DNA from: a virus
DNA length: 23,944 nucleotides
Strand: one strand, 5' to 3'
Virus record (IMG/VR): IMGVR_UViG_3300033064_003625
Coordinates: 1-23,944 of that record
The translations under genes were made by a program, and so were the position numbers. A model generated the notes under the pieces. That model saw nothing but the letters and a program-made list of their open reading frames with translations. It searched no databases and had not been told where the DNA came from. Of this stretch, positions 5,700 through 22,838 are shown piece after piece (positions within the stretch are counted from its first letter, which is position 1; each line of letters starts with the position of its first letter).

Positions 5700-6145
5700 T
5701 ACCTTGCCGCCATATTGTAGACCGCTTGCAATTCTTGCTTGGCGATTATCTTGGCACGAATTCTTGAGGGCAGCATCTTACGTTTCGGCACGCCGATGCC
5801 TTCTTCATGTTGTTGGGCGTACTGGGTTTGCGTGCCAACGGTCACATGCTGCGGGCCGACGGCAAAGATATTATCGCTGCCGCCCGAAACAAATGACATT
5901 GAGAGCCGGCCAGTATCTCGAAGGATCTTGGCGCCTCGACCATGCATGCGCCGCTGCGAAAGCGTGCGCGCTGATAAGGGTTGCCAGCGAGCTCCGCCCA
6001 ACGAGCCCTCAGCCTTGAAGTTCTGGCCAATCCAATACAGATGGGCATTGCCAATCGACTGGAGGATCTGCCGGGCATTGATATGGTTGCGCATCTTACG
6101 CAGCTTGCGCTTTGCACCAGTCACGTTGATTGATACGCCGATCAT
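5699..6145 (-). CDS. Virion morphogenesis / tail completion protein (Mu gpG-like)
   Basis: A 148-residue basic protein with features of the phage virion morphogenesis family: FKAEGSLGGARWQPLSARTL (residues about 44-63), then KILRDTGRLSMSF, a VGPQHVTVGTQTQYAQQHEEG segment, and a late KRKMLPSRI. In Mu the homologue takes part in joining tail to head. The ATG overlaps the stop of the connector gene by four bases (ATGA), the tightest coupling in this tail block. Confidence 0.82.
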   Translation of the reverse strand: MIGVSINVTGAKRKLRKMRNHINARQILQSIGNAHLYWIGQNFKAEGSLGGARWQPLSARTLSQRRMHGRGAKILRDTGRLSMSFVSGGSDNIFAVGPQHVTVGTQTQYAQQHEEGIGVPKRKMLPSRIRAKIIAKQELQAVYNMAAR

Positions 6146-6648
6146 GTGACCAGCCTCGAGTAACCATTGCCGCGCTCGTCTTGCTGCGCTTCGACCTTGT
6201 CAGGATCGTGGGTCATGTCTTTGAAGTTGATACTGTCGGTAAAGGTTGGCGTGAAACCATCGGTGGTCGTCTTCAGCTGTGAAGTGGAAGTATTGGCCCC
6301 GATGACATCGCCATTCTCATCGGTCAAGAGAAGATCGCCATCGCCAATCTTGTCAGCAGTTTCGAGCGCCTCTTTAAAACGATCAGGCCACGCGCTGTCT
6401 TTCAAACGCTCGTTGGTGAATACCCGCTTCGCCAAGACTTGATAGGTGGCAAGATCCGTTGCCAGCGCCTGAAGCAGCGGGACTGTTCCAGACACCGGCA
6501 CGGAATACATCTTGACGATACGGGCATTCAATTCAGCCTCGCCATACTCGGCAAGCTCAACCGTCTGCGCAGATGTCAAAGTTGACAAAGAACCAATCTG
6601 CGGCACCATGGTATGGATGCGGTCAACGCTTGTGTATGTCAAGGCCAT
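6142..6648 (-). CDS. Head-tail connector protein (Mu gp36-like / DUF1320 type)
   Basis: A 168-residue protein whose first 90 residues form a helical bundle (TSVDRIHTMVPQIGSL, TVELAEYGEAELNARI, LLQALATDLATYQVLAKRVF) like the head-completion adaptors that bind under the portal. It is followed by a charged, likely flexible tail from about residue 100. It is the first gene of the tail-joining block, three bases after the large glycosyltransferase gene. GGGGAGT lies upstream of the ATG as a ribosome site. The family assignment follows from the helix pattern and the gpG-like gene next to it. Confidence 0.7.
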   Translation of the reverse strand: MALTYTSVDRIHTMVPQIGSLSTLTSAQTVELAEYGEAELNARIVKMYSVPVSGTVPLLQALATDLATYQVLAKRVFTNERLKDSAWPDRFKEALETADKIGDGDLLLTDENGDVIGANTSTSQLKTTTDGFTPTFTDSINFKDMTHDPDKVEAQQDERGNGYSRLVT

Positions 6649-6651
6649 CGA

Positions 6652-9597
6652 TTACCACTCCCCGGTCTGAAAGCGTTCCATCTTCTGATCAAGGCGATGG
6701 GTGATTTCAACGATCGCTTCATCAGCGTCGGCGAAGCGGGCGTGGGTCCCGTGACCATTGATCACATCGCCGACACCGTCACGATTGACATTCAGATCGA
6801 AGCTCACATCGATGCCCTCACCAAGCAGCACCAAGCACTCGGTGTAATATGATAAGGTATCGATGCCGACCAGCTTTGTCTGGGCGAGGAAGTGCTCGCG
6901 ATACATCGCACACGCCTCTCTGGCGCGACCCGCCATGTCGGCCGTGACCTGCCCGCCATTACCTTGATAAAGGTAGCGGTTGAGCAGGCACATATCCCGG
7001 ATCACGAAATGCTTTTGCAGCAGGCGATCAGGGTAGGTCTCGATATCTTTTCTGACCAGCGGCGTATTGCGGCCAAACCGGTTGCGCCTGATATTCTCAG
7101 ACATGTATCCGGTATGGCCTATATTGACATCAGTGACGATCAGCACTGGCCCCGGCCCTTTATTCATGCCGGCTTCCGGGTGCTCGTGGATCATGCCGTA
7201 GAACCTGATCGGATTGCCGTCAGGCGTGGCAGTGCGATTAAAAAGCCTGACCGGCATATCGGGATCGAAGTGCCCATCGACGGTGAAGTGGTGTTGCTTG
7301 AGACCGAACCCGACCCAATGCGACTGGCGCATATACTTGGTGATGTTCTGGGCATCGACAATCCGCTCATCGGTATCGAACCAGAGGATCATGTCAGTCC
7401 AGCTAGCATCAAGCGCCTCATTGCGCGGCGTTTCAAAACCATGCTGGATTGGATCCGAGCCTTCGATGATGCGGACAGTCGGCACCGTTGCGAGCATGAT
7501 CTTGCTCAGATCAGAAAGGCCGGTATCGACCACCACGATCTCATCGACCAATTCCTTGACGGCATCGATGCCCCAAAGGATTGACTTCTCGGCACCCGGG
7601 CCGGCAATGATATTTGCCGACACGGTCAGGCGCGGTCGCTGAAGCCGCAGCTTGCGATCGAGGTCGATGGGTTTGATGGGCTCGTGATCTGCTTTGTACC
7701 AAGTCAAATGGTAGCCGACAGCGTCGCCGTTGACATCGCACTTGCGCTCGGGCGATCCATCGACCGCCAGATCAGGTTTGCCTTTGAACATCTCTGCCAG
7801 ATCAGCAAGCTCCAGTTCCCAGATATGATTCCGGAACTCGTACCAGTTGCGAGTGCCAATCTCACTGGGACCGAATGGCGTGGTGATCAAAACCAGACCG
7901 CCAGCCTTGATAAATTTTTCGAGCCGCTCGACAACCGTTGCCGGTTCAATCACATGCTCAAGCACTTCACTGATCAAGAGCACATCATACTCTTCAATCA
8001 GCTCGATCTCATCGTCGCCGACGAGAAATTCGAGGTTGGCAGGAGCATTGGCAAACTCTTGGGCATAGCGTTCACATGCCGCGATGGCACCGGGATCAAT
8101 ATCGACGCCGGTGATTTCACAGCCCAGTGTGTTGGCATAGAAGATCGACGACCAGCCATGCCCGCAGCCAAACTCGAGCATCTTGAAATCAGGGAGATCC
8201 CCGTCTTCGTTGGTTTGCATTTCAAACCGGATGCGATCAGCGATGTCCCTGAAGCGCCGCTCGTTGGATCCATCAAACATATCCGGCGTCGCCTCGAGCT
8301 TGTCAAGGTACGCTGAGGTATTTAAACCATTTGAAAGATAATGCTCGTTGAACGCTTCTTGGCTTACGATGAACGGGTAGTGCTGGTCAATCAGACCACT
8401 CAAGCGATCAGCGCCCTGCCCGGTCTGACCTTCCAGCGCCGCCTTGGCGGCAAAGATGTCTGACCGTTTGTAGAAATGATAGGCCAGCCGAACCGGATCA
8501 TCGTTGAGCTCATCGAACAACTTGTCGAAGCCCAACGTCCATTCTTCGGCGACTGAAGACCAGTCCATCGCCTTGGCAGCTTTGATACCGGCCTTCGATG
8601 CAGCCTCGAAGGCTTTATCGTCGGTCGCGAATTTGACCACGGCAGCGACGAACTTCTCGACGTAGGCGGTGCCATCATTGATCAGGGTGCCGGCACCTTT
8701 GGCGACGGTTTCAGGGAGCGCCCCGATGCGGCTTGTAACTATGGGAAGGCCGCAGGCTTGAACCTCCATGGCGGAGATGCATGAGATTTCCCGGAAGTCT
8801 GCACTGATCGGACTCGGTGTCGGATACACGTACACGCCCGCGGCCTTATGGACCGCATAAAGCTCGGCCTTTGTCAGGTGCCCTCCGTGCTTCACACGAT
8901 CCCCCATCTCATCCATCTGTTGGGCTAAGGCACCATAGAAGCCATCCAGATGAGACACAGGATTTTCATAACCGTACACCGTGAGGCGATACTCGGGATC
9001 GATCTCCCAGAGCGCCGGCATGATCTTGTCGAGCATGACATCAAGGCCACGCTCGGGTCGGGCGGCATATATAAGATGCTTGCGATCACGCCCGCCGCCG
9101 GGGGCATCATCAATCAACTTGAGGTCGATGCCGTTGCGCGTGCTCCACCAGATCGGATCGTCTTCGCCGAAGCCGTATACATCGGAATACTGCTTGCGCA
9201 TGAATTCAGAGAGCACCATGACGCGGTCGATGTTCCAGCTTGGCGCTTTGAAGTGATCGCTCATACGACCCGTCGCCATATCATGTTGCCAGAGGATATT
9301 GACTTTGGAGGCCAGACGGTTTTGGAAGGCGGTGGGCTGGCGCTGCACGATGTTGATATCATGAGGCGTCGACTTGGAATAAATCTCCCAGCGATCCTGC
9401 GGCATGTAGACCACATTATCGTGAGTGCTGATTTCGGGTGTGTTTGAAAAGACAATGACGCGATGACCCATCGCTGCCAGTTCACGAGCCATACATAGGC
9501 CCGCAGTTTCGGAGCCGCCCAAAGACTTGGTCTTTAAGGTGCTCCCGTCAAAGGCCATGCCGGGCACCAGCATGACGATATCATATGCATCTCGCAT
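6652..9597 (-). CDS. Three-domain GT4 glycosyltransferase - SAM methyltransferase - GT2 glycosyltransferase
   Basis: A 981-residue protein with three enzyme domains. Residues 1-365 are a GT-B glycosyltransferase (GT4-like): SLGGSETA at 25-32, AARPERGLD at 178-186, and SAMEVQACGLPIVTS at 275-289 for nucleotide-sugar binding. Residues about 470-640 are a class I SAM methyltransferase: LEFGCGHGW at 474-482, GVDIDPGAI at 497-505, and EVLEHVIEP at 544-552. Residues about 655-850 are a GT-A glycosyltransferase (GT2-like): VVVDTG at 688-693, RNEALD at 725-730 and the metal-binding FDTDE at 740-744. The rest is helical. An ATG 24 bases upstream (9621) overlaps the previous stop, but the one at 9597 has the AGAAAGGTAGAA leader two bases before it and starts right at the first beta strand, so it is preferred. 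The protein probably adds and methylates sugars on a virion or surface glycan; the substrate is unknown. Confidence 0.9.
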   Translation of the reverse strand: MRDAYDIVMLVPGMAFDGSTLKTKSLGGSETAGLCMARELAAMGHRVIVFSNTPEISTHDNVVYMPQDRWEIYSKSTPHDINIVQRQPTAFQNRLASKVNILWQHDMATGRMSDHFKAPSWNIDRVMVLSEFMRKQYSDVYGFGEDDPIWWSTRNGIDLKLIDDAPGGGRDRKHLIYAARPERGLDVMLDKIMPALWEIDPEYRLTVYGYENPVSHLDGFYGALAQQMDEMGDRVKHGGHLTKAELYAVHKAAGVYVYPTPSPISADFREISCISAMEVQACGLPIVTSRIGALPETVAKGAGTLINDGTAYVEKFVAAVVKFATDDKAFEAASKAGIKAAKAMDWSSVAEEWTLGFDKLFDELNDDPVRLAYHFYKRSDIFAAKAALEGQTGQGADRLSGLIDQHYPFIVSQEAFNEHYLSNGLNTSAYLDKLEATPDMFDGSNERRFRDIADRIRFEMQTNEDGDLPDFKMLEFGCGHGWSSIFYANTLGCEITGVDIDPGAIAACERYAQEFANAPANLEFLVGDDEIELIEEYDVLLISEVLEHVIEPATVVERLEKFIKAGGLVLITTPFGPSEIGTRNWYEFRNHIWELELADLAEMFKGKPDLAVDGSPERKCDVNGDAVGYHLTWYKADHEPIKPIDLDRKLRLQRPRLTVSANIIAGPGAEKSILWGIDAVKELVDEIVVVDTGLSDLSKIMLATVPTVRIIEGSDPIQHGFETPRNEALDASWTDMILWFDTDERIVDAQNITKYMRQSHWVGFGLKQHHFTVDGHFDPDMPVRLFNRTATPDGNPIRFYGMIHEHPEAGMNKGPGPVLIVTDVNIGHTGYMSENIRRNRFGRNTPLVRKDIETYPDRLLQKHFVIRDMCLLNRYLYQGNGGQVTADMAGRAREACAMYREHFLAQTKLVGIDTLSYYTECLVLLGEGIDVSFDLNVNRDGVGDVINGHGTHARFADADEAIVEITHRLDQKMERFQTGEW

Positions 9598-9620: not shown

Positions 9621-9959
9621 TTAAAGCTTCCGCACCACTTTGAAATCGCGTGCGGCAGCTTGGTCAATATCAAGTTCGATCCGGCCATATTCAAAGGGCT
9701 TTAAAACTTCGGCCGAAAGAGCAACGCCACCGATGCCAACTGTCCAAGTGAAATCTCCCTGACCATCCATCTCAGCAATGCGGACAAAGCCAGCTGAGGT
9801 TGTGTCAAAATTCCCTTGCAGGAATGCCTGACAGGAAGTGAGTGCCGGGGCAACGATGGCAAGTTCCCTTGCCCCGGCAATCGAGAAGTTACCTGACACC
9901 AGACCGCTCCCGCTAATGGGGACTGTCGCTGTCTCTGTGTCAACGGTTTTCCGTGGCAT
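9621..9959 (-). CDS. Small beta-rich structural protein, head region
   Basis: A 112-residue protein with no catalytic motif. After a short polar start it alternates strands (GLVSGNFSIAGARELAIVAP, then FLQGNFDTTSAGFVRI, DFTWTVGIGG and FEYGRIELDIDQAAARDFKV), which looks like a beta sandwich. Proteins of this size and shape after the major capsid gene are often minor decoration or neck proteins. It follows its neighbour by four bases, with only a weak AGGG site upstream, so it probably relies on coupled translation. Not recognised to a named family. Confidence 0.7.
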   Translation of the reverse strand: MPRKTVDTETATVPISGSGLVSGNFSIAGARELAIVAPALTSCQAFLQGNFDTTSAGFVRIAEMDGQGDFTWTVGIGGVALSAEVLKPFEYGRIELDIDQAAARDFKVVRKL

Positions 9960-9963
9960 GGTC

Positions 9964-10308
9964 TTAACCCTGCGTGGTACGGATCAAGGCCCACATGACG
10001 GTGGTTGCGGCATCACGAGCCGCAACACCATCCGCCATCGCTAAATCAAAAGAGATGCCGCTGCGAATGGATGACACTTCGATTGGCCCAGCTGCGCCGC
10101 TGTTCTGACGCGTATCGGACTGCATCGTCGCGAGGATGATGCTGTCCGAGTTCACCAGAGCAGTCGAGACGGTGACTGAGACATCACCCGAAGCGACCGA
10201 AGTCCGCCCAAAGGCAGGCTCGTTGCTGTTCGGCCCGCCATCGAGGTTGCCGTGAAGAGCACCATGGATAAGCGGATTGTAGAGTTGGTCATTGGTCTTA
10301 CCAGACAT
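9964..10308 (-). CDS. Small head-region structural protein, function unknown
   Basis: A 114-residue protein with a polar, glycine- and asparagine-rich N-terminus (NPLIHGALHGNLDGGPNSNE) and a C-terminal strand-rich part (VSVTVSTALVNSDSIILATM, then IRSGISFDLAMADG and TTVMWALIRT). The C-terminal half resembles a small beta fold such as those of phage surface or decoration proteins. A clear ribosome site, TAGGAGAG, lies 4 bases before the ATG and includes the stop codon of the preceding gene. Function not recognised. Confidence 0.7.
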   Translation of the reverse strand: MSGKTNDQLYNPLIHGALHGNLDGGPNSNEPAFGRTSVASGDVSVTVSTALVNSDSIILATMQSDTRQNSGAAGPIEVSSIRSGISFDLAMADGVAARDAATTVMWALIRTTQG

Positions 10309-10317
10309 GCCGCTCTC

Positions 10318-10542
10318 CTATACTGCTTTCTTGCGCGGTGCCTTGGCTTTCGCCTTGGCCGGGGTCCGATCGGAGGCAACGCTGATGCGCGCTGCCTCCG
10401 TAACGGTGCGAGTGAAGTTGCCGAGCTTTTTGCCAAGCGACCTCGCAATTTGGTCCCAAGTGGCTTGGGGATAGTCGAAGACATCGCCTGCCTTCCACTT
10501 CCCATTACCACGAGGAACGTCCTTGGTGAACACCAGTTCCAT
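10318..10542 (-). CDS. Small basic-tailed protein after the capsid gene
   Basis: A 74-residue protein. Residues 1-45 look folded (MELVFTKDVPRGNGKWKAGD and then VFDYPQATWDQIARSLGKKL), with a K-x-GD turn as in small beta-barrel head proteins. The last 20 residues are a lysine/alanine-rich basic tail (PAKAKAKAPRKKAV) that could touch DNA. It starts two bases after the capsid stop with almost no ribosome site, so it likely depends on ribosomes finishing the capsid gene. Function unknown. Confidence 0.65.
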   Translation of the reverse strand: MELVFTKDVPRGNGKWKAGDVFDYPQATWDQIARSLGKKLGNFTRTVTEAARISVASDRTPAKAKAKAPRKKAV

Positions 10543-10544: not shown

Positions 10545-11531
10545 TTAACCGCGGGGGTCAACGATGAGGTAGCCGAGCTCGGGAGCAACGACTTTCTCAT
10601 CCTGGAAGTGGCCGGCCTCGATGACCTCGACCTTCTCGGTGCCAGCACCGGCGATGGTCATGCGCTCAACCTGGAAGTCAGCCGGGAAACCCGCCGGACG
10701 CCAATTGAACCGAAGACCGAGCGACTTCGTCTGCAGCCCGGTGGCCGGCCCGATGTGAGCCAGGAGCACGTTGTTGCCCCAGATGTTCGTGATCGAGGAG
10801 GCGCCGCCTTCGAGTTCGTTTGCCTTGACCGCCATGCCGATGTGAATTTCCTTGACGCCGAAAACGTCGCGGAGGTTTTCCATCGTCACCATGCCGGACT
10901 GGGTATGCTTGTACATATCCAAGAGCATGGGATGACGGCGCACGATCTGAGCCGTGTCGTAATCCATCATCATGGTATTGGCGACCAGACCAGTCTGCGC
11001 CCGGATATAGGCGTGGCCGGTGGTGACGTCGGCGATCGGATCGGAGGCAGTGAAGTCGGTCCACTGATTCCCACCGGTCAAGGTCGTACCCGACCCGAGG
11101 TTGCCGGCGGTCGTCAGCAAGGTCGCGATGCGATCTTCCTGCGAGCGGAGCAAGTCGGTGGTGATCAGGCTGACGCTGTTCTCGCGCAGCTGGATCGCCA
11201 TATCGGCATTGGCGAGGTCTTCCAAAGCGTTCTCATTGGCCAACGCGTAGTTGTCGGCGAAGAAGGCATCGGAGCTGACATCGAACTCGACCCGGCGGGC
11301 TTTGGTCTTGGGTGCCCGGAGTGCCGTCTGGGTACGGAGGAAGGCGCCTTTGCTGATCGTGTAGTACTTATCGGATTGCTTGCCGACCGGAACGGCCGGG
11401 AGCAACTTTGCCCCGATGAAGTCATCCACGTTATCGTTGAAGGCGCGCACCGCCATGTTCGAGAGCGGCACATCCATGTGAGCGTCGCCGCCGGAAGGGG
11501 TACCGTACTTTTTCAGAGTTGACTTTAACAT
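10545..11531 (-). CDS. Major capsid protein (HK97-fold type)
   Basis: A 328-residue protein with the opening typical of a widespread phage major capsid family: DVPLSNMAVRAFNDNVDDF, IGAKLLPAVPVGKQSDKYYT and ISKGAFLR, then a run of arginine-rich sequence. Later segments (TAQIVRRHPMLLDMYKHT, LRDVFGVKEIHIG, NNVLLAHIGP, and a C-terminal EAGHFQDEKVVAPELGYL) match capsid A- and P-domain patterns. Two ATGs sit in tandem at 11534 and 11531. The AGGAGG site ends 2 bases before the first but 5 before the second, so the second is preferred. The same AGGAGG contains the end of the cement gene's stop, and a strong site fits the most abundant virion protein. Confidence 0.9.
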   Translation of the reverse strand: MLKSTLKKYGTPSGGDAHMDVPLSNMAVRAFNDNVDDFIGAKLLPAVPVGKQSDKYYTISKGAFLRTQTALRAPKTKARRVEFDVSSDAFFADNYALANENALEDLANADMAIQLRENSVSLITTDLLRSQEDRIATLLTTAGNLGSGTTLTGGNQWTDFTASDPIADVTTGHAYIRAQTGLVANTMMMDYDTAQIVRRHPMLLDMYKHTQSGMVTMENLRDVFGVKEIHIGMAVKANELEGGASSITNIWGNNVLLAHIGPATGLQTKSLGLRFNWRPAGFPADFQVERMTIAGAGTEKVEVIEAGHFQDEKVVAPELGYLIVDPRG

Positions 11532-11540
11532 CATCCCCTC

Positions 11541-11930
11541 CTATGTCCGGACCAGAGGCGTGGGACGCTCAAGCAGCACCCGGACAACTTCGCCGTCGGT
11601 GGCCGCAGTCTCGAGAGCGGTACCGATGACAATATTGCCGGAGGCTGCATCAGCGGCGCGCCCTGACCCATTGGTGGTGATTTTGGAATTGGCGGTGACG
11701 GCGCCACCGGCAACGACCTTGACTTCGCCGGCGTAGGCGATGGTCGCGGCCTGACCAGAATCGGGTTTGTTGATCAGCACGCCCATCGGCCCGAGCACGT
11801 GTGTGGCGGCAGCGTGCGACGCGATGTCGCAAGTGCCGGCCGCAACCGCTCGCTGAATGGTGTACTGCATCGTCCGCATGTCCCGGGCCGCTTGCGCGGT
11901 GCGGGATACGACATTGACCATATCAGACAT
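11541..11930 (-). CDS. Capsid cement / head decoration protein (DUF2190-like)
   Basis: A 129-residue beta-rich protein with repeated small-residue turns: MGVLINKPDSGQAATIAYAG, EVKVVAGGAVTANSKITTNG, then SGRAADAASGNIVIGTALET and DGEVVRVLLERPTPL. This pattern is characteristic of DUF2190-type proteins that stabilise capsids and are encoded beside the major capsid gene. It follows the protease-scaffold gene with a one-base overlap (TGATG), the normal gene order for this module. Confidence 0.85.
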   Translation of the reverse strand: MSDMVNVVSRTAQAARDMRTMQYTIQRAVAAGTCDIASHAAATHVLGPMGVLINKPDSGQAATIAYAGEVKVVAGGAVTANSKITTNGSGRAADAASGNIVIGTALETAATDGEVVRVLLERPTPLVRT

Positions 11931-12643
11931 CAGCTGGCCTCCGCGTACTGGCGTTTCAGCTCGGCATTGTCAGGGTCATCACAGACCAGCTTGAAGGCTG
12001 CGCTGTAATCCTTGATGTCATGCTTGGCCATGTAAACGCTGGTGAGCCGACTCAACTCGGCACCGGCATCTTCGGTCGTCTCGGCGGCGGGCTCGTCATC
12101 CCGTTTGAAGTCACCGGTGTGACCCAGAGTGGTGAAAAGTCTTTCGGTGGATTTGTTGATGCGGGCGACCAGATCGTCGATGACCTTGATCGCAGCAACA
12201 TCGCCGTACTTCTTTTCACCCTTGTCATCTTCGCTGATGAAGAAGCGAACCTGAGTGTCCGACCGGGAGGCCAGATCATAAAGGGCCGCGACATGATCAC
12301 GAAGAGAGGGAACGCGCAGGTCTTTGACTTTGGCCTCAACCCGAGCGGCGCGCTCGCGTTCGCCGGAAGCAGCGAGCTCGGTGCGCATCGCTTCCATATC
12401 ATCCTGCATCTTTTTGAAGTCGACGGCGTCGACACTGGCCGATCCGCCATCGCCTTCATCATCGCCTTCACCGGCCTTGTCTTTCGACTTGGGCGGCTTG
12501 GCTGACAGTTCCACGATCTTGCCGGACACTTCGGACTGCTCTGCATAAAGGGCAGCGAGCTTTTCAGCGTCCTGCTCTTCTGCAATCTCAGCCGTCAATG
12601 CGGTCAAGCGCGCGGTGCAATCAGCAAGGGTTTTGAGCGTCAT
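11930..12643 (-). CDS. Scaffold protein from an internal in-frame start
   Basis: Met297 of the protease-scaffold gene (ATG at 12643) is preceded by AGAGGAGAG with an AGGAG core 7 bases from the ATG, a much better ribosome site than that of the full-length gene. Starting there gives a 237-residue, mostly helical and acidic protein with the features of a free scaffold and no protease domain. The same nested arrangement is known for Mu I/Z and lambda C/Nu3, where the short form is made in excess as the true scaffold. The reading frame is the same as that of the parent gene. Confidence 0.75.
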   Translation of the reverse strand: MTLKTLADCTARLTALTAEIAEEQDAEKLAALYAEQSEVSGKIVELSAKPPKSKDKAGEGDDEGDGGSASVDAVDFKKMQDDMEAMRTELAASGERERAARVEAKVKDLRVPSLRDHVAALYDLASRSDTQVRFFISEDDKGEKKYGDVAAIKVIDDLVARINKSTERLFTTLGHTGDFKRDDEPAAETTEDAGAELSRLTSVYMAKHDIKDYSAAFKLVCDDPDNAELKRQYAEAS

Positions 12644-13531
12644 CTTTGCTCTCCTCTTTGGTTGAACCGTATAGGCGTGTATTCCATCCCATGAGCTTTC
12701 GCCAAATTCGACGACGCCATGGAGCGGCTTCAAGTCGCCCACACCGGGGGTTTCGGCCCCGAGCAGGGCCACTGCTTTCAAGACACGCCGGAACAGTTTC
12801 CCGTTGCGCTTGAAATTCCAAAATATCTCTGAGCTCACCGCATCGAAGCGGCGCTCTTTAATCAGAGACACGATTTCTTTGGGGACATCGACAAAGTCAG
12901 CGACCAGTCTGGCGGCGCTCTTCTTTGCGTTGTCAAATTCGATGCGGATATTCTCGACCCAGCCATAAGCCATGCCGCCGCTCTTCTCTTGATGGCCCAG
13001 CTTGACTGGCGGGTTGAAGCCGACGCCTTCGGCGGCGGCGACGATATCTTGAAGGTCCTTGGTGGTGTAGTTCTCGCCATTCCATTTGCCGGTGCGAAAG
13101 ATTTCAACGCCATCGATGCGCCCGCTGTTGGGAGCAGGGTCCTTGAAATCTTTCAGCTCAGCGAATGACTTGGGCCGTTCAATCCGCTTGATTGTCGAGG
13201 GATCAAAGTTGTCTTTGGCTCGAATTTCGTATGTGAATTCATTCCGCGTGTCTTTGAATTCATCGCCGCCCCAGAAGCTCATCTGATCAAGCCACTTGCG
13301 GGCGGATACAAGATCGTAGGCTTCTTTGTCAAATGATACGGAATGGATGGCCCAGTTGTCTGAGCCCTTAACTTTGCCGATGGAGATTGTGATGCCAACC
13401 GGCTGGAAAAAACCAAAGGCGCTAAATGCGGCCTTTTCAGCATCGCCTTTGACGGCGACTGTAGAACGATCCTTGAGCTCTGTCGCAGCAATGCGATCCA
13501 AGCCGGGAATATTCAATAGCTGAAGCTTCAT
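11930..13531 (-). CDS. Head maturation protease fused to scaffold (Mu gpI-like)
   Basis: A 533-residue protein. Residues about 60-130 hold an extension with SFDKEAYDLVSARKWLDQ, seen in some phage protease genes. Residues about 140-275 are the Mu I-like head protease domain: VEIFRTGKWNGENYTTKDL, VKLGHQ (His180), GWVENIRIEF, then RRFDAVSSEIFWNFK (Ser233/Ser234) and LKAVALLGAETPGV; His180 and one of the serines are candidate catalytic residues. Residues 297-533 are a charged, coiled-coil-rich scaffold (ARLTALTAEIAEEQDAEKL, a disordered acidic stretch, and MQDDMEAMRTELAASGERER). It would clear the scaffold after capsid assembly. A weak GAGGG site lies upstream of the ATG, directly after a terminator-like hairpin. 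Confidence 0.85.
   Translation of the reverse strand: MKLQLLNIPGLDRIAATELKDRSTVAVKGDAEKAAFSAFGFFQPVGITISIGKVKGSDNWAIHSVSFDKEAYDLVSARKWLDQMSFWGGDEFKDTRNEFTYEIRAKDNFDPSTIKRIERPKSFAELKDFKDPAPNSGRIDGVEIFRTGKWNGENYTTKDLQDIVAAAEGVGFNPPVKLGHQEKSGGMAYGWVENIRIEFDNAKKSAARLVADFVDVPKEIVSLIKERRFDAVSSEIFWNFKRNGKLFRRVLKAVALLGAETPGVGDLKPLHGVVEFGESSWDGIHAYTVQPKRRAKMTLKTLADCTARLTALTAEIAEEQDAEKLAALYAEQSEVSGKIVELSAKPPKSKDKAGEGDDEGDGGSASVDAVDFKKMQDDMEAMRTELAASGERERAARVEAKVKDLRVPSLRDHVAALYDLASRSDTQVRFFISEDDKGEKKYGDVAAIKVIDDLVARINKSTERLFTTLGHTGDFKRDDEPAAETTEDAGAELSRLTSVYMAKHDIKDYSAAFKLVCDDPDNAELKRQYAEAS
12651..12655 (-). promoter_or_regulatory. Internal ribosome-binding site for the scaffold
   Basis: Minus-strand AGGAG lies 7 bases before the in-frame ATG at 12643, inside the protease-scaffold coding sequence. 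Confidence 0.75.
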
Positions 13532-13783: not shown

Positions 13784-14077
13784 ATGACCATCACAACAAA
13801 CCTCGAAGCCATCGTCCTTAACAACATCGCCTATCACGAGATGTGCCCGCAGAATGGTGCCAAGCCGCAGAGCCACCGCGATGCATGCTGCTGGTGCTGG
13901 GCTGACGATTTCGCCGGCGATGCGATGACCGTCAATGCCTGCAAGGGCGTCCTGTCCAGTCTCGTCAAAAAAGGCTTCATCGTTATCCACCCCAACGATC
14001 CTGAAGATAGCGAAGTGGATTTCACTGAAGCCGGCTTCGAAGCATGGAAGCTGATCGACGACAACCGCAGCGATTGA
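13784..14077 (+). CDS. Small winged-helix-like protein, function unknown
   Basis: A 97-residue protein. The N-terminal 45 residues are rich in cysteine, histidine and tryptophan (AYHEMCPQNGAKPQ, CCWCWADDF). The C-terminal half (NACKGVLSSLVKKGFIVIHP, then EVDFTEAGFEAW) has the helix, beta-hairpin and helix arrangement of a small winged-helix domain, a form also found in other phage and plasmid genes. CCGGAG lies 11 bases before the ATG. It is the first gene of the inverted island and could be its regulator, which is inference from the fold. Confidence 0.75.
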   Translation: MTITTNLEAIVLNNIAYHEMCPQNGAKPQSHRDACCWCWADDFAGDAMTVNACKGVLSSLVKKGFIVIHPNDPEDSEVDFTEAGFEAWKLIDDNRSD

Positions 14078-14085
14078 AATTAAAT

Positions 14086-14105: not shown

Positions 14106-14107
14106 CC

Positions 14108-14673: not shown

Positions 14674-14684
14674 TCGTGCTACTC

Positions 14685-14704: not shown

Positions 14705-14731
14705 AGAAAGGCGGTTTAATTTATTTTATTG

Positions 14732-15175: not shown

Positions 15176-15196
15176 GTTTTAACACAACCAGTAAAA

Positions 15197-15455: not shown

Positions 15456-15649
15456 AAATACTATCGAAAGAAGAATACACCCGCAGTGAGGGAAAGGTTT
15501 GCCCTCACTGCAAAGAGAAAGAAGTGACCTCGGTCACATCCATTGAGCGGGATGCTTTTGGCGCTTGGCGCGAAATGGCCTGCAAATCTTGCGGGGCAAA
15601 GTTCATCGAGCAGTTCAGACTTGACGGGTATTCTCAGCTTTCAGTTTAA
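15452..15649 (+). CDS. Small zinc-ribbon protein
   Basis: A 65-residue protein with two CxxC pairs, C17/C20 (CPHC) and C44/C47 (CKSC), separated by 23 residues: a four-cysteine zinc-ribbon arrangement. Zinc ribbons of this size usually bind nucleic acid or protein; the partner is unknown. It starts with a four-base overlap with the previous gene. Its TAA overlaps the stop of the convergent glycosyltransferase gene, with no terminator between the two. Confidence 0.75.
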   Translation: MKILSKEEYTRSEGKVCPHCKEKEVTSVTSIERDAFGAWREMACKSCGAKFIEQFRLDGYSQLSV

Positions 15650-16431
15650 ACCACATGCCCATCGATCAGGTGGTGGAACATGCGTAGGTGGCCGCAGGTT
15701 TTGAAATGCTTGTCGGCCATCTGTTGCCTGTACTTGTGGAAGCGTTCGACCTGCGCCTCTTCTGAATGGAGGTCGTTGTAGGTCGCCCGATTGAGATGCT
15801 CGATGCGCACCCGATGATTGCGATACGATCGTAGGCCGGCAGCGTAGTGGGCCAAGACCAAATCGGTGTCGCTGAAGATGTCAGGGAAGTCTTCATCAAA
15901 TGTCTTTGGGAATGGATCAGTGTTAGTTGATCCATGTGCCGCGTTGCCATCCATCAGAGCCCAGTGCTCGGGCAACCATTGTCGACGGAACATCATGAAG
16001 GGACCATAGACACCTTCAATGATGTGATCGCCGACATCGCTTATTGGCTTTGGCAGATCCCCAGACGCCAAGCATGATACGCCGCAGTCAGCATAATCTT
16101 CGAAGGGCCGCAGCAGCTCACGCGCCCAGCCCGGGCGGACAAAGACATCATTGCCGGTGTGCACCACGAACTCACCATCGCACCACTTGAGGCCGGCATT
16201 GGCATCGGCGGTCCATTGGGATTTTTCTTCGATGTTGACATACTTGGTCTGCACGGGCAATCCATTGCCTTGATAAACCTTGTGGTCCTGGAGATGGCTG
16301 CTGCCAGTCTCGACAATCACTAGGTTGAAACCAGCGCCGGGATAGATGGCAAGGCAATCCAGAGCGTACTTGGTCATGGGCACCTGCCAACTGGGCTCGG
16401 TGAATAGAATGGGCATCAGCACTGTGATCAT
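15646..16431 (-). CDS. GT2-like glycosyltransferase, copy B
   Basis: A 261-residue GT-A fold enzyme. It has LVIVETGSS at 37-45 (nucleotide binding), DANAGLKWCDGEFVVHTGND (76-95) with a D-x-x-x metal site variant (NDVF), then YGPFMMFRRQW and SDTDLVLAHYAAGLRSYRNHRV near the C-terminus, as in the GT2 acceptor region. It is a clear relative of the gene directly upstream (same segments in the same order), so the pair is a tandem duplication. The ATG overlaps that gene's stop by one base. A conventional D-x-D is replaced by N-D, which may change metal use. Substrate unknown. Confidence 0.85.
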   Translation of the reverse strand: MITVLMPILFTEPSWQVPMTKYALDCLAIYPGAGFNLVIVETGSSHLQDHKVYQGNGLPVQTKYVNIEEKSQWTADANAGLKWCDGEFVVHTGNDVFVRPGWARELLRPFEDYADCGVSCLASGDLPKPISDVGDHIIEGVYGPFMMFRRQWLPEHWALMDGNAAHGSTNTDPFPKTFDEDFPDIFSDTDLVLAHYAAGLRSYRNHRVRIEHLNRATYNDLHSEEAQVERFHKYRQQMADKHFKTCGHLRMFHHLIDGHVV

Positions 16432-17156
16432 CAGAAGTACTCCCGGCCGTATTGGTTGCTGCCGCGCATCATCATTCGGTAGATTGCCAGCGGGCTGTCG
16501 CCATGGCGCTTCTCGAACTTTGCCTTGGCGATCATCACTTTCTCATTCCGCTCTTCGGCGCTGAATGCTTTTTCCCAAGTGATGCCATTCATGTGAAAGC
16601 CCTTGGCCTTATTGTTTCGGTACGCCCGCATGCCATCGTTATAAATGCGCATGACCAGATCGTTGTCGGAGGCTTGGTCGGGGAACATTGGATCCAAGAA
16701 CCAGCCATCGCGAAACATCATCAGCGGCCCGTACATCGCCTCATCGATTGTATCTTGCGGCACGAAGGGACCAATGCTAGCGCCGGGCTCGCCCATTGAG
16801 ATTGTCGCCACGCCGCAATCTTTGAACTTGGTGAAGCATTCCAGCATTGCTTCGAGCCAGCCCTCGCCGACAAAGACATCGATGCCGATATGGACTTTGA
16901 AGTCGCCGCTTGATGTCCGCAGGCCGGCGTTGAAGTCGCTGGTGTAATTGGATCGCTTTTCCATGTAGAGATGCCTGTCGGCCAAATCAACTAGATCACC
17001 TAGATCACCTGATCCGGTCTCGACGATCACCAGCTCGAAAGGGATCTTGGTCTTTGCCCGCATCGTCAGAATTTGGAATCGAGCGAGATCCTCCTGCCAT
17101 GGATCAGCGAGCATCACCGGCAATATCACCGAGACGCGCGTTTTCGAATTGCTCAT
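16431..17156 (-). CDS. GT2-like glycosyltransferase, copy A
   Basis: A 241-residue GT-A fold enzyme. RVSVILPV forms the first strand (7-14), followed by LVIVETGSG at 42-50, DFNAGLRTSSGDFKVHIGID at 74-93, and the metal-site variant IDVF. The C-terminal part carries YGPLMMFRDGW and SDNDLVMRIYNDGMRAYRNN. These match copy B. The first strand is needed for the fold, so the start at 17156 is retained even though it overlaps the radical SAM gene by 53 bases in another frame. The two enzymes could add two sugars in a chain or form one complex; this is inference. Confidence 0.85.
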   Translation of the reverse strand: MSNSKTRVSVILPVMLADPWQEDLARFQILTMRAKTKIPFELVIVETGSGDLGDLVDLADRHLYMEKRSNYTSDFNAGLRTSSGDFKVHIGIDVFVGEGWLEAMLECFTKFKDCGVATISMGEPGASIGPFVPQDTIDEAMYGPLMMFRDGWFLDPMFPDQASDNDLVMRIYNDGMRAYRNNKAKGFHMNGITWEKAFSAEERNEKVMIAKAKFEKRHGDSPLAIYRMMMRGSNQYGREYF

Positions 17157-18810
17157 AACTAGCCTTCCTGCCGTACCAGACGGCTTCCCTCGCCCATGCT
17201 TCTTTGTCTGGCCATATTGGCTTGATCGATTTCAACTGGTGGCCAATGACGGAGCTGGGCAATTCCACCATGTGGCACACTTCAGCCACGAACAGGTCGG
17301 GGTTTTCCATAGCCCGGATATAGGATGCTTCTTCTGCTGGCCATGAGATGTCACCATAACCCGGCATCACCTGATCCCACGATCCGCCGGCGAGAGCCTC
17401 GGCGAACACTTTGCCATACTTATAGAAGATCATGCCGACTAACGTGCTTAGGTCTGGGTGCGAGGCCATCGCCCAATAGAATCTGGTATAGGGAATGCCA
17501 AAAGTTAACTTGGCAAAGATCGCTAGGCCGCGGGTCAGGCCAGTGCAATGGAAGGCTTGGATCGCATGCGACAGAATCATGGCTGATCGCCATTCGTCAA
17601 GGCTCATGGTCGAAGTGCTAGTCACCACCTCATAGGTCTCTTTAGCCCATTCATCAGGAGTAGCGTGGAGCAGCATCTGTTGCATGGTCAGGGTTTCAAT
17701 TTGATGCTTTTCGCGATAGGCTGGGTCATTGAGTTCACTGTTGGGCAAAACGATGCAAGGGTATATTGCCAAGTTGGCATTCGGGTCGGCATCAAGGATA
17801 CGATCGATGCCGCCAATGAAAGATTCCCAAGTCTCGCCCGGCAGGCCGATGATCAGCTCAGTATAAGTGGGAACGCCGCGTTCAGCGTAGCGCCGGGACA
17901 AGGCGGCATAATCATTGATAGCGATATTCTTGCGCTTGATAGCGGTGAGGGTATTGTCATCGAGGGACTGCAACGATAACGTGACGCCCTTGCCCAATCC
18001 AGAATCGTTTAATCGGCATGCCTGCTCGAAGATCCGATCGGTATGGATCTTGGGATAAGCGGCGCGCAACTTTTGCGGCCAGCCTGTGTTCTCTTTGGTG
18101 GTGATCAACCATTCAATCAGTTCACCATCACGCGGCAGCATGCCGAAGTTGGCATCGCAATTGTAGATGAGTTCAATCTGGTTGTCGCTGAACCAAATCA
18201 TCTCAGCCTTGAGGCGCTCCATATCGAACTGTGTCACCTTGGCTTGGACGGCGGAACCCCAATCACAAAAAGTGCAGCTGTACGGGCAACCACGGTGCGT
18301 TTCCCAAAGGGCATGGAAATCGACCTCCGGGTTGGCCTCAATGAGATCATCGAACAGGCCAGTGAGATATGGTGATGGGAGCTGGGAGATGTCTTTGGAG
18401 CGACCATTGCAAAACGTCACCGGCCTAGTAGGAATATCAACCAGTGCTGAATGGAATATCTTTTCACCTTCACCCATGATGGCAATGTCGATGAAATCTG
18501 GCGGCTCTGACGTCACCTGTGGCCCGCCAAGAATGACAACACACTTTGGGTTATCTCGTTTGACCGCAGCAGCCAGAGCCAGATTGTATTCCCAATTCCA
18601 GATGTAACAACTCAGGGCCAGGATGTCGGGCTTGGCCTTTATGATATTCTCGAAAGGCTCGCGGTCGAACTGCATTGGCCGGGCCAGCTCGAAGTTATCG
18701 CGGACCATCTCGTCCTGTATGGCATAGGCCCACAGGCTGGCGACCGAATATGGCAAGAAGGCGTTATTGCCGAAGCGATGGTTGGGCTGGGCGAGGTGAA
18801 TTGTTTTCAT
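17104..18810 (-). CDS. Radical SAM enzyme with B12-binding-type N-terminal domain
   Basis: A 568-residue protein. Residues 1-125 form a cobalamin-binding-like domain with ALSCYIWNWEYNLALA, VVILGGPQVT (91-100) and IMGEGEKIF (111-119). The DxHxxG cobalt ligand motif is not visible, so cobalamin may bind in a base-off mode or not at all. The radical SAM core follows with C175-x3-C179-x2-C182 (GCPYSCTFC) for the [4Fe-4S] cluster, then NCDANFGM, SLQSLDD and ELIIGLPGET. Residues from about 400 on are helical and unassigned. Such enzymes make methylations or rearrangements at unactivated carbons, and here the context suggests sugar or peptide modification. The ATG overlaps the 70-residue gene by four bases. 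Confidence 0.85.
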   Translation of the reverse strand: MKTIHLAQPNHRFGNNAFLPYSVASLWAYAIQDEMVRDNFELARPMQFDREPFENIIKAKPDILALSCYIWNWEYNLALAAAVKRDNPKCVVILGGPQVTSEPPDFIDIAIMGEGEKIFHSALVDIPTRPVTFCNGRSKDISQLPSPYLTGLFDDLIEANPEVDFHALWETHRGCPYSCTFCDWGSAVQAKVTQFDMERLKAEMIWFSDNQIELIYNCDANFGMLPRDGELIEWLITTKENTGWPQKLRAAYPKIHTDRIFEQACRLNDSGLGKGVTLSLQSLDDNTLTAIKRKNIAINDYAALSRRYAERGVPTYTELIIGLPGETWESFIGGIDRILDADPNANLAIYPCIVLPNSELNDPAYREKHQIETLTMQQMLLHATPDEWAKETYEVVTSTSTMSLDEWRSAMILSHAIQAFHCTGLTRGLAIFAKLTFGIPYTRFYWAMASHPDLSTLVGMIFYKYGKVFAEALAGGSWDQVMPGYGDISWPAEEASYIRAMENPDLFVAEVCHMVELPSSVIGHQLKSIKPIWPDKEAWAREAVWYGRKASYEQFENARLGDIAGDAR

Positions 18811-19019
18811 CCGCAGAGCATCCAGCTGAATAGATATGACATTCCGGCACTACCAAGAAAGGCACCGACACCAGCAGCAAGCCAAAGGGGAGGGGGCTTG
18901 ATGATGCGTTCTTTGATCTCATCCTTGGTCTCAACTTCTTTTGGATCACCACGCCGGTCAATGGACTTTGCTCTATCAGTTGGCCTATCAGTTGTAGGCT
19001 TCTTACCTTGCTCAGCCAT
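18807..19019 (-). CDS. Small one-TM protein
   Basis: A 70-residue protein with a charged, lysine/arginine-rich N-terminal 42 residues and a single hydrophobic segment at about 44-67 (LWLAAGVGAFLGSAGMSYLF). It overlaps both neighbours (one base with the dehydrogenase, four with the radical SAM gene), so it is built into this operon. It could anchor the enzymes at the membrane. A holin-like role is possible for any small TM protein in a phage, but there is no lysis gene beside it. Function unknown. Confidence 0.65.
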   Translation of the reverse strand: MAEQGKKPTTDRPTDRAKSIDRRGDPKEVETKDEIKERIIKPPPLWLAAGVGAFLGSAGMSYLFSWMLCG

Positions 19020-20428
19020 CAGCCTTCTCCCACTCGGATCACCGTGATGCCATCTTGGTCAGCGATGTAGCGGTGAGGGTCGATGACGATTGAGCCTTCG
19101 ATCCATGCCCAGCGCTCCCAAAGCTCATGCTTGCAACTAATAACAGCGATGCAAGGCTTGCCTTCGCCACTAAATACATCTGGTGCGCCTTCGCCAGAAT
19201 CAATGCGTGGATCCCACTCTGTGCAAATTGGATCGAACATCTCAAATGGCACCTGGCCAGTCATCAAGTCAGCCAGCAACAATGCCGGGCTTCCAGTTGT
19301 GATGTTGGTGCCGGGCTTGAAGGCTGTGCCCATGAGCACCACGGGCAGGCTGGTCGCCTTGTATTGTTCAATGATCAGGCGCATCAGGTAGTCGGTCTGG
19401 TACTCGCGCCAGTGCATGATGTCCTCGAAAGGATTGCAGCTCAGCTTGAGCTCTTGGGCCAGATACGACATGGCAATGTTATCACGAGGATGACAACCAC
19501 CACCATCGCCCATACCGCCACGAAGATAAGTTGGGCTAATGATGCGACGATGAGCAAGGGAAAGCCCATCAATAACTTCATCGCAATCAGCATTTGGTAT
19601 TTCATGGCATATCTCCATGATGGTATTTGCGAAGCCAATCTTCAGGCCGATGAAGGTATTGTAAGCGACCTTGGTCAGCTCGGCACTTTCGATTGACACC
19701 TCAGCGAACGGGGCGTGGCGCTTGTGCGTTCGCTCGGAATATTCATGTGGCGCATCTTCATCAACCATTGTGGCCGCAAGGCAATCGATGTGCGCTTGGC
19801 GAACTTTGTCAAGTGCACCGTCATCATCCCCACCCAGCAGCACGAACTCCGGGTCGATGAAGTCGCGCCACGTTGTGCCCATGGCGATGAAGGCAGGGTT
19901 ATAAACGACCGGCGCGATGTCTTTGAAGATGGGCATGATCTCGCGGCGCATCGTGCCGGGGAGCATGGTGCTGATGATGGCGATTGTTGGTGGTGTATTG
20001 CCATCATCATGGTTGAATCTTTGAATGTTCAGAATGCAGTTGGCCAAGTCCTGACTGGCATCGGTGATGTAGTGATAGTCGAAGTCCTTGCGATCCAGCG
20101 GAATGGGCGTGATGCCTTCATATTCTGGATCGTGCGGCGTCTGCACTGCGACGAAGATCACTTCGGCATGCGCTGCGACCTCGCCCATTGAGCCGAAGTG
20201 GAGGCGACCACTTTCTTTGCTGACGAAAGTTTTACCATCATTATCCGCCATGTGCCTGACGGTGATGTTGAAATCACTGCCACCCGGATCCAGTTCCTGA
20301 TACTGGCGCTGGTTATAGGTCATGTTGACTGGGTCAAGATCGTAACCCATAACGTCATGCCCGGCATAAACCATTGCAGTGGCGACGGGATAGCCCAGCT
20401 TGCCTAGGCCGATGAATCCGATTTTCAT
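19019..20428 (-). CDS. UDP-glucose / GDP-mannose dehydrogenase-like protein
   Basis: A 469-residue protein with the three-part fold of nucleotide-sugar dehydrogenases: NAD-binding GFIGLGKLG (4-12), the middle segment ESAELTKVAYNTFIGLKIGF (247-266), the catalytic GDGGGCHPRDN with Cys312, and the UDP-binding GTAFKPGT at 367-374. The family makes UDP-glucuronic or GDP-mannuronic acid by a two-step oxidation through this Cys. In most members the motif is GGxCFPKD; here it is GGGCHPRD, with His and Arg in place of Phe and Lys. It starts at 20428 with the AGAAAGTTAGAA leader 4 bases before the ATG. It begins the sugar cassette, probably supplying an acidic sugar donor for the glycosyltransferases. 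Confidence 0.9.
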   Translation of the reverse strand: MKIGFIGLGKLGYPVATAMVYAGHDVMGYDLDPVNMTYNQRQYQELDPGGSDFNITVRHMADNDGKTFVSKESGRLHFGSMGEVAAHAEVIFVAVQTPHDPEYEGITPIPLDRKDFDYHYITDASQDLANCILNIQRFNHDDGNTPPTIAIISTMLPGTMRREIMPIFKDIAPVVYNPAFIAMGTTWRDFIDPEFVLLGGDDDGALDKVRQAHIDCLAATMVDEDAPHEYSERTHKRHAPFAEVSIESAELTKVAYNTFIGLKIGFANTIMEICHEIPNADCDEVIDGLSLAHRRIISPTYLRGGMGDGGGCHPRDNIAMSYLAQELKLSCNPFEDIMHWREYQTDYLMRLIIEQYKATSLPVVLMGTAFKPGTNITTGSPALLLADLMTGQVPFEMFDPICTEWDPRIDSGEGAPDVFSGEGKPCIAVISCKHELWERWAWIEGSIVIDPHRYIADQDGITVIRVGEG

Positions 20429-20520: not shown

Positions 20521-20549
20521 ATTATAGGGCAATTCGCCCTAACTTAAAA
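20521..20549 (-). promoter_or_regulatory. Possible weak promoter ahead of the sugar cassette
   Basis: On the minus strand TATAAT (20526-20521) lies 17 bases after TTTTAA (20549-20544). The -10 is consensus and the -35 is poor (3 of 6). A 6 bp hairpin (TAGGGC/GCCCTA, 20525-20541) overlaps it. A transcript from here would meet the terminator at 20475-20445 first. Confidence 0.2.
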
Positions 20550-22838
20550 CCCCTTATGCGAGAGCGACAGTCCCCGGGCGACTTCGCTGGCGCTGATGTA
20601 TTTGTCAACATTGGCACTGGCCGGAATGGGGATCAGATAGCTGCGGCAGTTAAAATGCCTCGGCGGCTTGAGCTGATCAGCGTTGCCGTCGCCGGCCTTG
20701 AAGTTCTTGCCGTCGAGGAAACGGCAGACATCAGTGGTTCGGCCATCAAGGATCGAACTGTATTCAAAGCCCTTCAGCAATGGCCCGGCCTGTCTGGCCT
20801 GCAGCAATCGACCGGTGTTGAATGCGTCGGTGGCATTGGTGCGGATGATGGTCTCAAGTCGATGGGCACTGACCACCTCGCCATCGACAGTGATCCCGAC
20901 AAACGGATCGAAGGCAGCACCAAGCGTCTCCATGGTCGCTCGCAAAGGCTGACCGGTCTCGACCGCGTTGAGCAGGATCAATCGAGCCTCATCAACCAAG
21001 TCATCTTCAATGACGCCAGTCACCCATAGCGACTTCTGCTGCAAGTGGCGCATGGCATCGGAGGGCTTGTAGTTTGGATCGTCGTACCATTTCACCTCAT
21101 TGTTGGTGAAGGCCTTGACTTCTCGCCGCAAGGTTGTCCGCCCCAGTTGATAGGTGCTGAGAACAAATTCCTCGACCGCCTTCTTGATGCCATCGATCTT
21201 GCGCAGCCCTTTAATGCTCATCGGGAACTCAGACTGGAGCTTGAAGTTCTTCTCAACGTGTTTTAACAGCGCGTTGCGGCTGATGATCAGGGCTGCGCTG
21301 ATCTGCTCGCGTCCTCGCTTCTCGACCCGGTCGAGCTCTTTCTCGATGGTAGCAGCGTCGGAATGGATGGCGAAGGATTCGACGGCCTCTCTTGTGGCGA
21401 TGTCTTCCGGGCTTTCATCATCCGGCGATTCGCTCGGATCAGGGCTTTCGTCTTCTTCCTCATCGGGCTCAGCATTCCTTTCATCCATTTCGTCTTGATC
21501 CAACTCCTCAAAGTCGAGCAGATCGCGGACACGGTTCTCGTCGGTGGGCCTTGACTTGACACCGCCTGCAGCCAGTTGCTCGCGCCACTCGCCAAGGATA
21601 TCCAGACGGATGTCATCGGTCAGCGGCAGGAACCTGAACCCGGGATACACGTCGGTGGTGAAGTTCAGATTGACCAGCGGCTTGATAATCTGGTCCATCA
21701 TCACCTTCTCTTGGATCTCGGATCGCAGATACTCGACCACCAGCATGAAGACATCAAACTGGACCCGAGCGCGAGCGAATGAGCCAGCTTGCTGATCAGG
21801 CGTCAAGCCCAAGAGGCCCGGCATCAGGATCGCCCGAGCAATGTCCCGGTTGAACATATCAAGGGTCGGGCCGAATACGTCCTTGGCATTCTTGGCCAAG
21901 TTCTCCGGCGACCATAATTCAAGGTTGTCAGGATCCGATCGAGGTATCACGCCCATCGTTGTTGAGCTCATCGACTTGAGGGCGCTGTACAGCTTGTCGA
22001 TATGCGCCGGCGAATACTTCTTGGGATCATACATCGCCAAGATGGTCGGCACGCCATAGCGTTCAAGCACCATCATCAGGAACTTGTAGGCATTGTCCTT
22101 CGACCACCAAGGCCGATAGGCGGCGATGAAATCGCTCTTGCCATAATGATTGCCGAACTCGAACTGGTGGGTGTAGATCACGAACTTGTCAATCGGCAAC
22201 TTGGTGTACCCGCCCGCTGATGCGCCAGCCGTGCCCCGCTGCCAGAGACCATCCTCGGCGATGTTGCCATGCTCGTCCGTTTTGAAGTCGAAGGAATGAG
22301 GCTTGCGGGTCTTGAGTGCCCTGAGATTGATCATGCCGTCGGCGTCGTCGTAAATCTTTTCCGTGACGCTGTAGCCATAATCCATCGCCGTCATTATCTG
22401 GATCAGCGTGGTCTGAAAGGATCCATCAAGCTCTTCAAGTGTCTTGGTGACGAACTCAGTGACCTCCCAATCCTCGGCCTGCCCTTCAGGACTGACGATC
22501 TCGTACCCTGCCGAAAGGATGGTATGCTTTTTAAACAGGGAGGCGGCATGGATCTGATCGTCCTCCCGCATCTGGTCAAAGATGCGCATGCCATATCGGG
22601 TGACCAAGGCATCAGGATTGTAGGGTGTGATGCTGAAGCGCCCGCCGAACATGTTGAGAGGATCCGCCACCGACATCTCACCTCTGGTGTTGGCGGCAAA
22701 CTCTTCGACGCCTTCTTTGATGGCCAGATTGACCCGCTTGACAGTTGTCTTGAGCTTCTTGGCAATCACTGCCGCCTCGCTGCCCGACCGATGCCATTCG
22801 GAGTAGATATCGTTGTCGGTCACCTTTGACTTGGCCAT
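20544..22838 (-). CDS. Portal protein fused to minor head protein (Mu gp29/gp30-like)
   Basis: A 764-residue protein. Residues about 8-40 (NDIYSEWHRSGSEAAVIAKK and LKTTVKRVNLAI) form a helix-turn-helix-like segment. Residues about 70-445 are a Mu gp29-like (DUF935) portal, with RYGMRIFDQMREDDQIHAAS, ILSAGYEIVSPEG and the long helix region ending MMDQIIKPLVNLNF. An acidic linker at about 455-480 (DEEEDESPDPSESPDDESPE) joins a Mu gpF-like minor head domain (about 500-740) with RTNATDAFNTGRLLQ, FEYSSILDGRTTDVCRFLDG and the closing PPRHFNCRSYLIPI. Separate genes in Mu are here one chain. The ATG overlaps the upstream stop by one base (TAATG). Confidence 0.9.
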   Translation of the reverse strand: MAKSKVTDNDIYSEWHRSGSEAAVIAKKLKTTVKRVNLAIKEGVEEFAANTRGEMSVADPLNMFGGRFSITPYNPDALVTRYGMRIFDQMREDDQIHAASLFKKHTILSAGYEIVSPEGQAEDWEVTEFVTKTLEELDGSFQTTLIQIMTAMDYGYSVTEKIYDDADGMINLRALKTRKPHSFDFKTDEHGNIAEDGLWQRGTAGASAGGYTKLPIDKFVIYTHQFEFGNHYGKSDFIAAYRPWWSKDNAYKFLMMVLERYGVPTILAMYDPKKYSPAHIDKLYSALKSMSSTTMGVIPRSDPDNLELWSPENLAKNAKDVFGPTLDMFNRDIARAILMPGLLGLTPDQQAGSFARARVQFDVFMLVVEYLRSEIQEKVMMDQIIKPLVNLNFTTDVYPGFRFLPLTDDIRLDILGEWREQLAAGGVKSRPTDENRVRDLLDFEELDQDEMDERNAEPDEEEDESPDPSESPDDESPEDIATREAVESFAIHSDAATIEKELDRVEKRGREQISAALIISRNALLKHVEKNFKLQSEFPMSIKGLRKIDGIKKAVEEFVLSTYQLGRTTLRREVKAFTNNEVKWYDDPNYKPSDAMRHLQQKSLWVTGVIEDDLVDEARLILLNAVETGQPLRATMETLGAAFDPFVGITVDGEVVSAHRLETIIRTNATDAFNTGRLLQARQAGPLLKGFEYSSILDGRTTDVCRFLDGKNFKAGDGNADQLKPPRHFNCRSYLIPIPASANVDKYISASEVARGLSLSHKGF

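Follow-up and report, generated by a model that had tools for sequence, protein, structure and literature searches.

The window analyzed here, a 23,944-nt viral contig (IMG/VR record IMGVR_UViG_3300033064_003625, positions 1 to 23,944), carries on its minus strand a head-and-tail module that includes a Mu-type portal, Gp36, a tail tube and a tape measure protein. One long gene of this module encodes two glycosyltransferases, of the GT4 and GT2 families, and a methyltransferase in a single chain (domain residue numbers refer to the 989-codon frame):

6652..9597, minus strand: GT4-methyltransferase-GT2 fusion gene; frame open to 9621, 989 codons
8506..9588, minus strand: GT4 (GT-B) domain, residues 12-372, with E278-x7-E286 and RPERG 188-192; PF13692/PF00534
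7657..8271, minus strand: class I SAM methyltransferase domain, residues 451-655, motif I EFGCGHG; Pfam, PDB profile and motif table
7102..7656, minus strand: GT2 (GT-A) domain, residues 656-840, with D749-T-D751-E752 and H812-EHPE
6655..7101, minus strand: helical C-terminal tail of GT2, residues 841-989, placed as in SunS/ThuS; predicted secondary structure

The plus-strand frame at this locus contains stops throughout. The preliminary description of this DNA started the gene at 9597, yielding a protein of 981 amino acids, and this start is preferred over 9621 because an AAAGG-like ribosome-binding site precedes 9597, with none before 9621, and the relatives of the protein align from the 9597 start. 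The open reading frame is far beyond chance, given the homologs in 86 contigs, the conserved synteny and the dN/dS values well below 1 that are described below.

The description of one chain with three domains that retain their key residues holds: the catalytic motifs are intact, and evidence comes from Pfam, PHROGs, PDB profile searches and fold comparison. The AlphaFold model of the whole fusion has a pLDDT of 90.5 and a pTM of 0.90. The N-terminal domain belongs to the GT4 family by its Pfam match (PF13692, residues 183-333, above the cut-off), E-x7-E motif and GT-B fold; it has PDB profile matches, its fold matches TarM, PimA and SdgB (Z about 21), and it also resembles WaaG and HepE. Both glutamates of the motif are present in 52 of the 61 full-length members, and the first is replaced by aspartate in some. 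The central domain is a class I SAM methyltransferase, with Methyltransf_23/11 matches above the cut-off (PF13489, residues 453-613, 1.8e-15) and the SAM-binding motif I; read by eye, D/E-x-G-x3-G is found in 55 of the 61 full-length members, and a stricter script pattern finds it in 28. The GT2 domain was not detected by Pfam in the window protein, and was identified by PHROGs (residues 685-883), by Pfam in relatives, by PDB profile search and by fold; its DxD motif is retained in 60 of the 61 full-length members. Comparison of predicted structures with known families, suggested earlier for each domain, bears out the GT4 (GT-B) and GT2 folds, the methyltransferase having been assessed from its sequence. 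None of 30 aligned fusion members contains a membrane segment.

The head operon and its sugar-related genes

Other genes of the module, encoded on the same strand of the window, are:

20544..22838, minus strand: Mu-type portal fused to a Mu F-like protein (Pfam PF06074, PF04233)
19019..20428, minus strand: nucleotide-sugar (UDP-glucose type) dehydrogenase (PF00984/PF03721, phrog_9148; below the NCBIfam cut-off)
17104..18810, minus strand: B12-binding radical SAM protein, C-methyltransferase-like (Pfam; NF033712, KedN5-type, 251 bits, cut-off 700)
15646..17156, minus strand: small GT2-like genes gtA (15646-16431; PF00535) and gtB (16431-17156)
11930..13531, minus strand: probable head protease/scaffold, between portal and major capsid protein, conserved in relatives
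11541..11930, minus strand: g13, homolog of an isolate gene annotated as head fiber or virion protein
10545..11534, minus strand: major capsid protein (MCP), by synteny and homology to annotated MCPs
9621..10542, minus strand: g9, g10 and g11, small genes between MCP and fusion
6142..6648, minus strand: Mu Gp36-like head gene (Pfam PF07030), directly after the fusion

The order MCP-g11-g10-g9-fusion-Gp36, with gaps of 2-23 nt (23 nt from g9 to the fusion and 3 nt from the fusion to Gp36), confirms the position between head genes and Gp36 noted at the outset. A promoter and terminator scan gave signals at the chance level, and the probable protease/scaffold has no Pfam or NCBIfam match.

The dehydrogenase, the paralogous gtA and gtB (32% identity) and the radical SAM gene all lie between the portal and the protease, and the dehydrogenase possibly supplies a donor sugar. 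The radical SAM protein, here part of the head operon, resembles methylcobalamin C-methyltransferases; a pattern scan of viral contigs gave no relative of it, and radical SAM genes recur in five contigs with the fusion (L005, L110, L113, L114 and L123). In L123, the genes upstream of the fusion encode nucleotidyltransferases, a sugar-type C-methyltransferase, an epimerase and a GT2. Glycosidase- or lectin-like genes are located between MCP and fusion or just 5' of the fusion in three contigs (L095:5081-6262 and L094:1925-2671, both between MCP and fusion, and L005:1047-3041). Such sugar-related neighbors fit a sugar-decorated particle and are absent from some members.

Other genes in and around the module are more diverse. 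Within the minus-strand head module of the window, a block of small genes is on the plus strand (13784-15649); one (14044-14673) matches phrog_6361, of unknown function, and three others that were scanned have no Pfam family. Directly 5' of the fusion, eight contigs (L096, L097, L099, L100, L103-L105 and L121) carry a NUMOD4/HNH-type gene of about 176 codons, assigned by Pfam for the L104 copy and by similar sequence for the others; in these low-GC contigs it is possibly a homing element. Amidoligase and gamma-glutamylcyclotransferase-like genes occur between fusion and Gp36 (L008:16227-20293, L100:6539-8161) and are possibly another protein- or wall-modifying pair. Some low-GC contigs have a separate GT4-like gene (about 450 codons; Pfam run on the L008 copy) 5' of the portal region (L007:1607-2953, L008:332-1696, L102, L104 and L121).

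Lineage-wide conservation alongside the capsid gene

Searches with the fusion protein and its alignments yielded homologs in 86 contigs (a few of them near-identical phages) with GC content from 30 to 67%; in 65 it is one ORF of 850 aa or more, and the full-length homologs are 28-46% identical. The MCP gene is upstream of the fusion in 69 of the 71 contigs with at least 2.5 kb of upstream flank, and Gp36 is downstream in 38 of 48, within the conserved order portal, protease, g13, MCP, small genes, fusion, Gp36, tail genes that spans the entire GC range. A separate scan seeded with the MCP yielded 62 contigs outside the fusion set, from the best 80 of 238 matches, and is biased in that the MCP alignment was built from fusion-bearing phages. 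Among these best 80 matches, the fusion was found in all 26 contigs with at least 5 kb downstream of the MCP and in 30 of the 32 with 3 kb. The domain order, which had been considered unusual for a virion operon, is thus nearly universal in this lineage, and the search for it elsewhere finds it almost always in the same slot.

None of the isolate phages searched carries the fusion, and no cultured member of the lineage was found. In KPP23, CRP-6, Ottawa and Vibrio 1.103.O, which have related MCPs, the fusion profile has no match in that slot; the isolates without the fusion have MCPs at about 27-30% identity. Three contigs from metagenome-assembled genomes carry the fusion, although phage contigs are not reliably binned. 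A tyrosine integrase is encoded in 2 of 12 long viral contigs, so that part of the lineage may be temperate.

The GC content of the fusion matches that of the rest of the contig (r 0.99, n=40), and its distances follow those of the MCP (Mantel r 0.89), with mean pairwise identities of 37% for the fusion, 41% for the MCP and 30% for Gp36. By these measures, the fusion has been inherited vertically together with the head genes; they are by themselves no proof of function. All three domains are under purifying selection, with median dN/dS of 0.12 for GT4, 0.15 for the methyltransferase and 0.07 for GT2 (the pairs being non-independent); among aligned members, conservation is highest in GT2 and lowest in the methyltransferase. 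Given the slot conservation, the MCP-seeded scan, the GC match, the purifying selection and the tracking of the MCP, the fusion can be regarded as near-core in this uncultured lineage of phages.

Several variants are found. The L003 fusion has no methyltransferase core, L112 is split between GT4 and methyltransferase-GT2, and the 1,615-aa protein of L123 (9545-14392) consists of a methyltransferase, a GT4-like stretch, a GT4, a degenerate methyltransferase and a GT2. In seven contigs (L098, L101, L107, L169, L170, L193 and L195), the fusion occupies the same slot but points the opposite way from the head operon, and in marine-type contigs the slot also accommodates HNH, amidoligase and other genes. 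These inversions and additional genes indicate that the fusion can behave as an inserted module, a point against the virion role proposed below.

Probable glycosylation of a virion protein

Among enzymes with solved structures, the GT2 half is most closely related to glycosyltransferases that modify polypeptides. In a search of its profile against PDB, the best matches were GmaR (4.9e-31), SunS (7.3e-23) and ThuS (9.7e-21), and the next GT2 followed at 2.4e-10. Because GT4 matches dominated the fold search with the whole model, the GT2 half was predicted (pLDDT 89.2) and searched alone; together with its tail, it matches SunS/ThuS with Z of 19-21.5 over about 270 residues, compared with 14.5 for the next family, and the best SunS match (Z 21.5) covers both GT2 and helical tail over 270 residues. 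By its GT-A fold, DxD motif, helical tail and nearest neighbors in sequence and fold, this half is thus of the SunS/ThuS/GmaR type, without being a SunS ortholog by the equivalog model TIGR04195 (27.1 bits for the window protein and 60.2 bits for L007, cut-off 350 bits). What it has in common with these enzymes is the family of the GT2 domain and the helical tail; to our knowledge, none of them is linked to head genes or occurs as a fusion with a GT4 and a methyltransferase. GmaR transfers GlcNAc to flagellin, an acceptor that its TPR domain has been proposed to bind (PMC9638930). Mainly because GT2 and tail are nearest to these enzymes, the profile matches and the predicted fold point to a protein acceptor. 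Lipopolysaccharide (LPS) GT2s without structures could resemble the fusion GT2 as closely: for the WaaE/LgtF-type LPS core enzymes, which are of the same broad kind, we know of no solved structure.

The analysis establishes the domains with their motifs, the synteny, the selection and the kinship of the families; the acceptor, the reaction order, the sugars and the presence of the product on the virion are inferred. The fusion probably attaches a short sugar chain, capped by methylation, to a virion protein. It would be a cytoplasmic trifunctional glycan-assembly enzyme made together with the head proteins, with a capsid, small head or tail protein as the putative target. The C-terminal GT2 would attach the first sugar directly to a side chain of the acceptor, held by the helical tail; the N-terminal GT4 would then extend the chain by one or more sugars; and the central methyltransferase would cap it. 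The preliminary description suggested that GT4 adds, the methyltransferase caps and GT2 adds again. This order finds no support: as the polypeptide-type half, GT2 is more likely to act before the other two, and the domain with the lowest conservation is the methyltransferase, which L003 lacks and L123 has in degenerate form. The role in virion-linked sugar that had been suggested gains from the lineage-wide conservation, the MCP linkage and the SunS/GmaR-type GT2; the acceptor may be the capsid, another virion protein or a host surface glycan. A search for acceptors by Ser/Thr content or C-terminal tails among MCP, g13, g9, g10 and tail tube gave nothing decisive, and in most members the MCP has no Ser/Thr-rich ends. 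The small proteins g9, g10 and g11 are candidate acceptors or decoration proteins.

In most members, the terminal strand of the tail tube protein (4095-5054 in the window, and its relatives) is rich in Thr/Ser, and in several it is of the TTTxSxY type. This end is a possible glycan site, although the strand may be structural.

Of the alternatives, the one that survives best, although it is unlikely, is late remodeling of a host surface glycan (LPS, capsule or exopolysaccharide) that would block re-adsorption or superinfection. GT4 and GT2 families are frequent in LPS synthesis, and the GT4 fold resembles WaaG and HepE. Furthermore, phage glycosyltransferases can alter the host serotype (PMC12619734). 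However, the fusion is fixed inside the head operon, the nearest solved relatives of its GT2 modify polypeptides, and nothing like an O-antigen conversion (gtr) operon was seen, with GtrA absent from 12 long, possibly incomplete contigs and no membrane segment in the fusion.

It is quite unlikely that the enzyme acts on a host protein, a secreted peptide or another polypeptide that does not belong to the particle, in the way SunS modifies a bacteriocin. SunS is itself phage-borne (SPbeta) and peptide-acting, and radical SAM enzymes, which are frequent in peptide modification, recur near the fusion; against this, no precursor peptide was recognized, albeit without a systematic search, and the linkage to MCP and Gp36 is lineage-wide. 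The inversions and the NUMOD4/HNH gene that low-GC contigs carry between MCP and fusion would also fit a selfish or moron cassette that homing endonucleases maintain and whose function has nothing to do with the virion. This is very improbable, given that no such gene was seen in that position in higher-GC contigs, that the fusion was present in every MCP-seeded contig with at least 5 kb of downstream sequence (among the best 80 of 238 matches), and that its GC content has ameliorated and its sequence has diverged together with the MCP. Addition of sugars to modified bases of phage DNA, for which virus-encoded glycosyltransferases are on record (cited in PMC12619734), is highly improbable, given that the solved GT2 matches include no DNA glycosyltransferase and 12 long, possibly incomplete contigs encode no thymidylate-synthase-type base-modifying enzyme above the cut-off.

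Glycosylation of a virion protein by the fusion would have precedents. In mycobacteriophages Che8, Corndog and Myrna, phage-encoded glycosyltransferases modify capsid and tail tube (Freeman et al. 2023, as related in PMC12363180, PMC11256854 and PMC12619734). Che8 gp108 (L203:4172-5347), annotated only as a glycosyltransferase, is by Pfam a GT2 fused to a TylF-like methyltransferase, so that the cassette employs the same kinds of parts, which are non-homologous: BLASTP finds no similarity of gp108 or gp110 to the fusion, and none of the three Che8 glycosyltransferase genes matches the fusion domain profiles. The Che8 enzymes are spread over three genes at the far genome end, whereas the fusion is one protein in the head operon, lineage-wide. 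The soluble WsaE of Geobacillus stearothermophilus likewise combines two glycosyltransferases with a sugar O-methyltransferase, and its methylation is tied to the end of chain growth (PMC2943079), so a fused methyltransferase can cap a chain; WsaE, however, is cellular, acts on a lipid-linked S-layer glycan and has an N-terminal methyltransferase (MT-GT-GT), in contrast to the GT4-MT-GT2 order of the fusion. Podovirus ctKR88 (MW202524) encodes, two genes after the annotated MCP, a GT2-TPR-GT4 protein, both glycosyltransferase parts of which match the fusion-derived domain profiles; the domain order differs, the methyltransferases are separate genes, and the ctKR88 head genes are unmatched by the profiles of the fusion lineage. 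This is a second case of a head-linked glycosyltransferase fusion.

The best reading of the fusion system is as a variant of the phage virion glycosylation known from mycobacteriophages, with unrelated enzymes. In the accessible literature, glycosylation of a phage's own particle has been demonstrated only for a few cultured mycobacteriophages; notable here is a single protein with its own methyltransferase that is nearly universal in an uncultured lineage spanning low and high GC content, in which this glycan-assembly enzyme amounts to a head gene. Should its product sit on the particle, virion glycans would be much commoner than thought, with a bearing on adsorption, stability and recognition, and the fusion would provide a compact, one-protein, lipid-free glycosylation tool. 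Only tentatively, with the chances slightly below even, glycosylation and methyl capping of the particles might be a core trait of a widespread uncultured lineage with Mu-like heads, brought about by a single assembly-line enzyme as old as the capsid and nearly as constrained. If so, glycan coating would be part of virion construction rather than an optional add-on.
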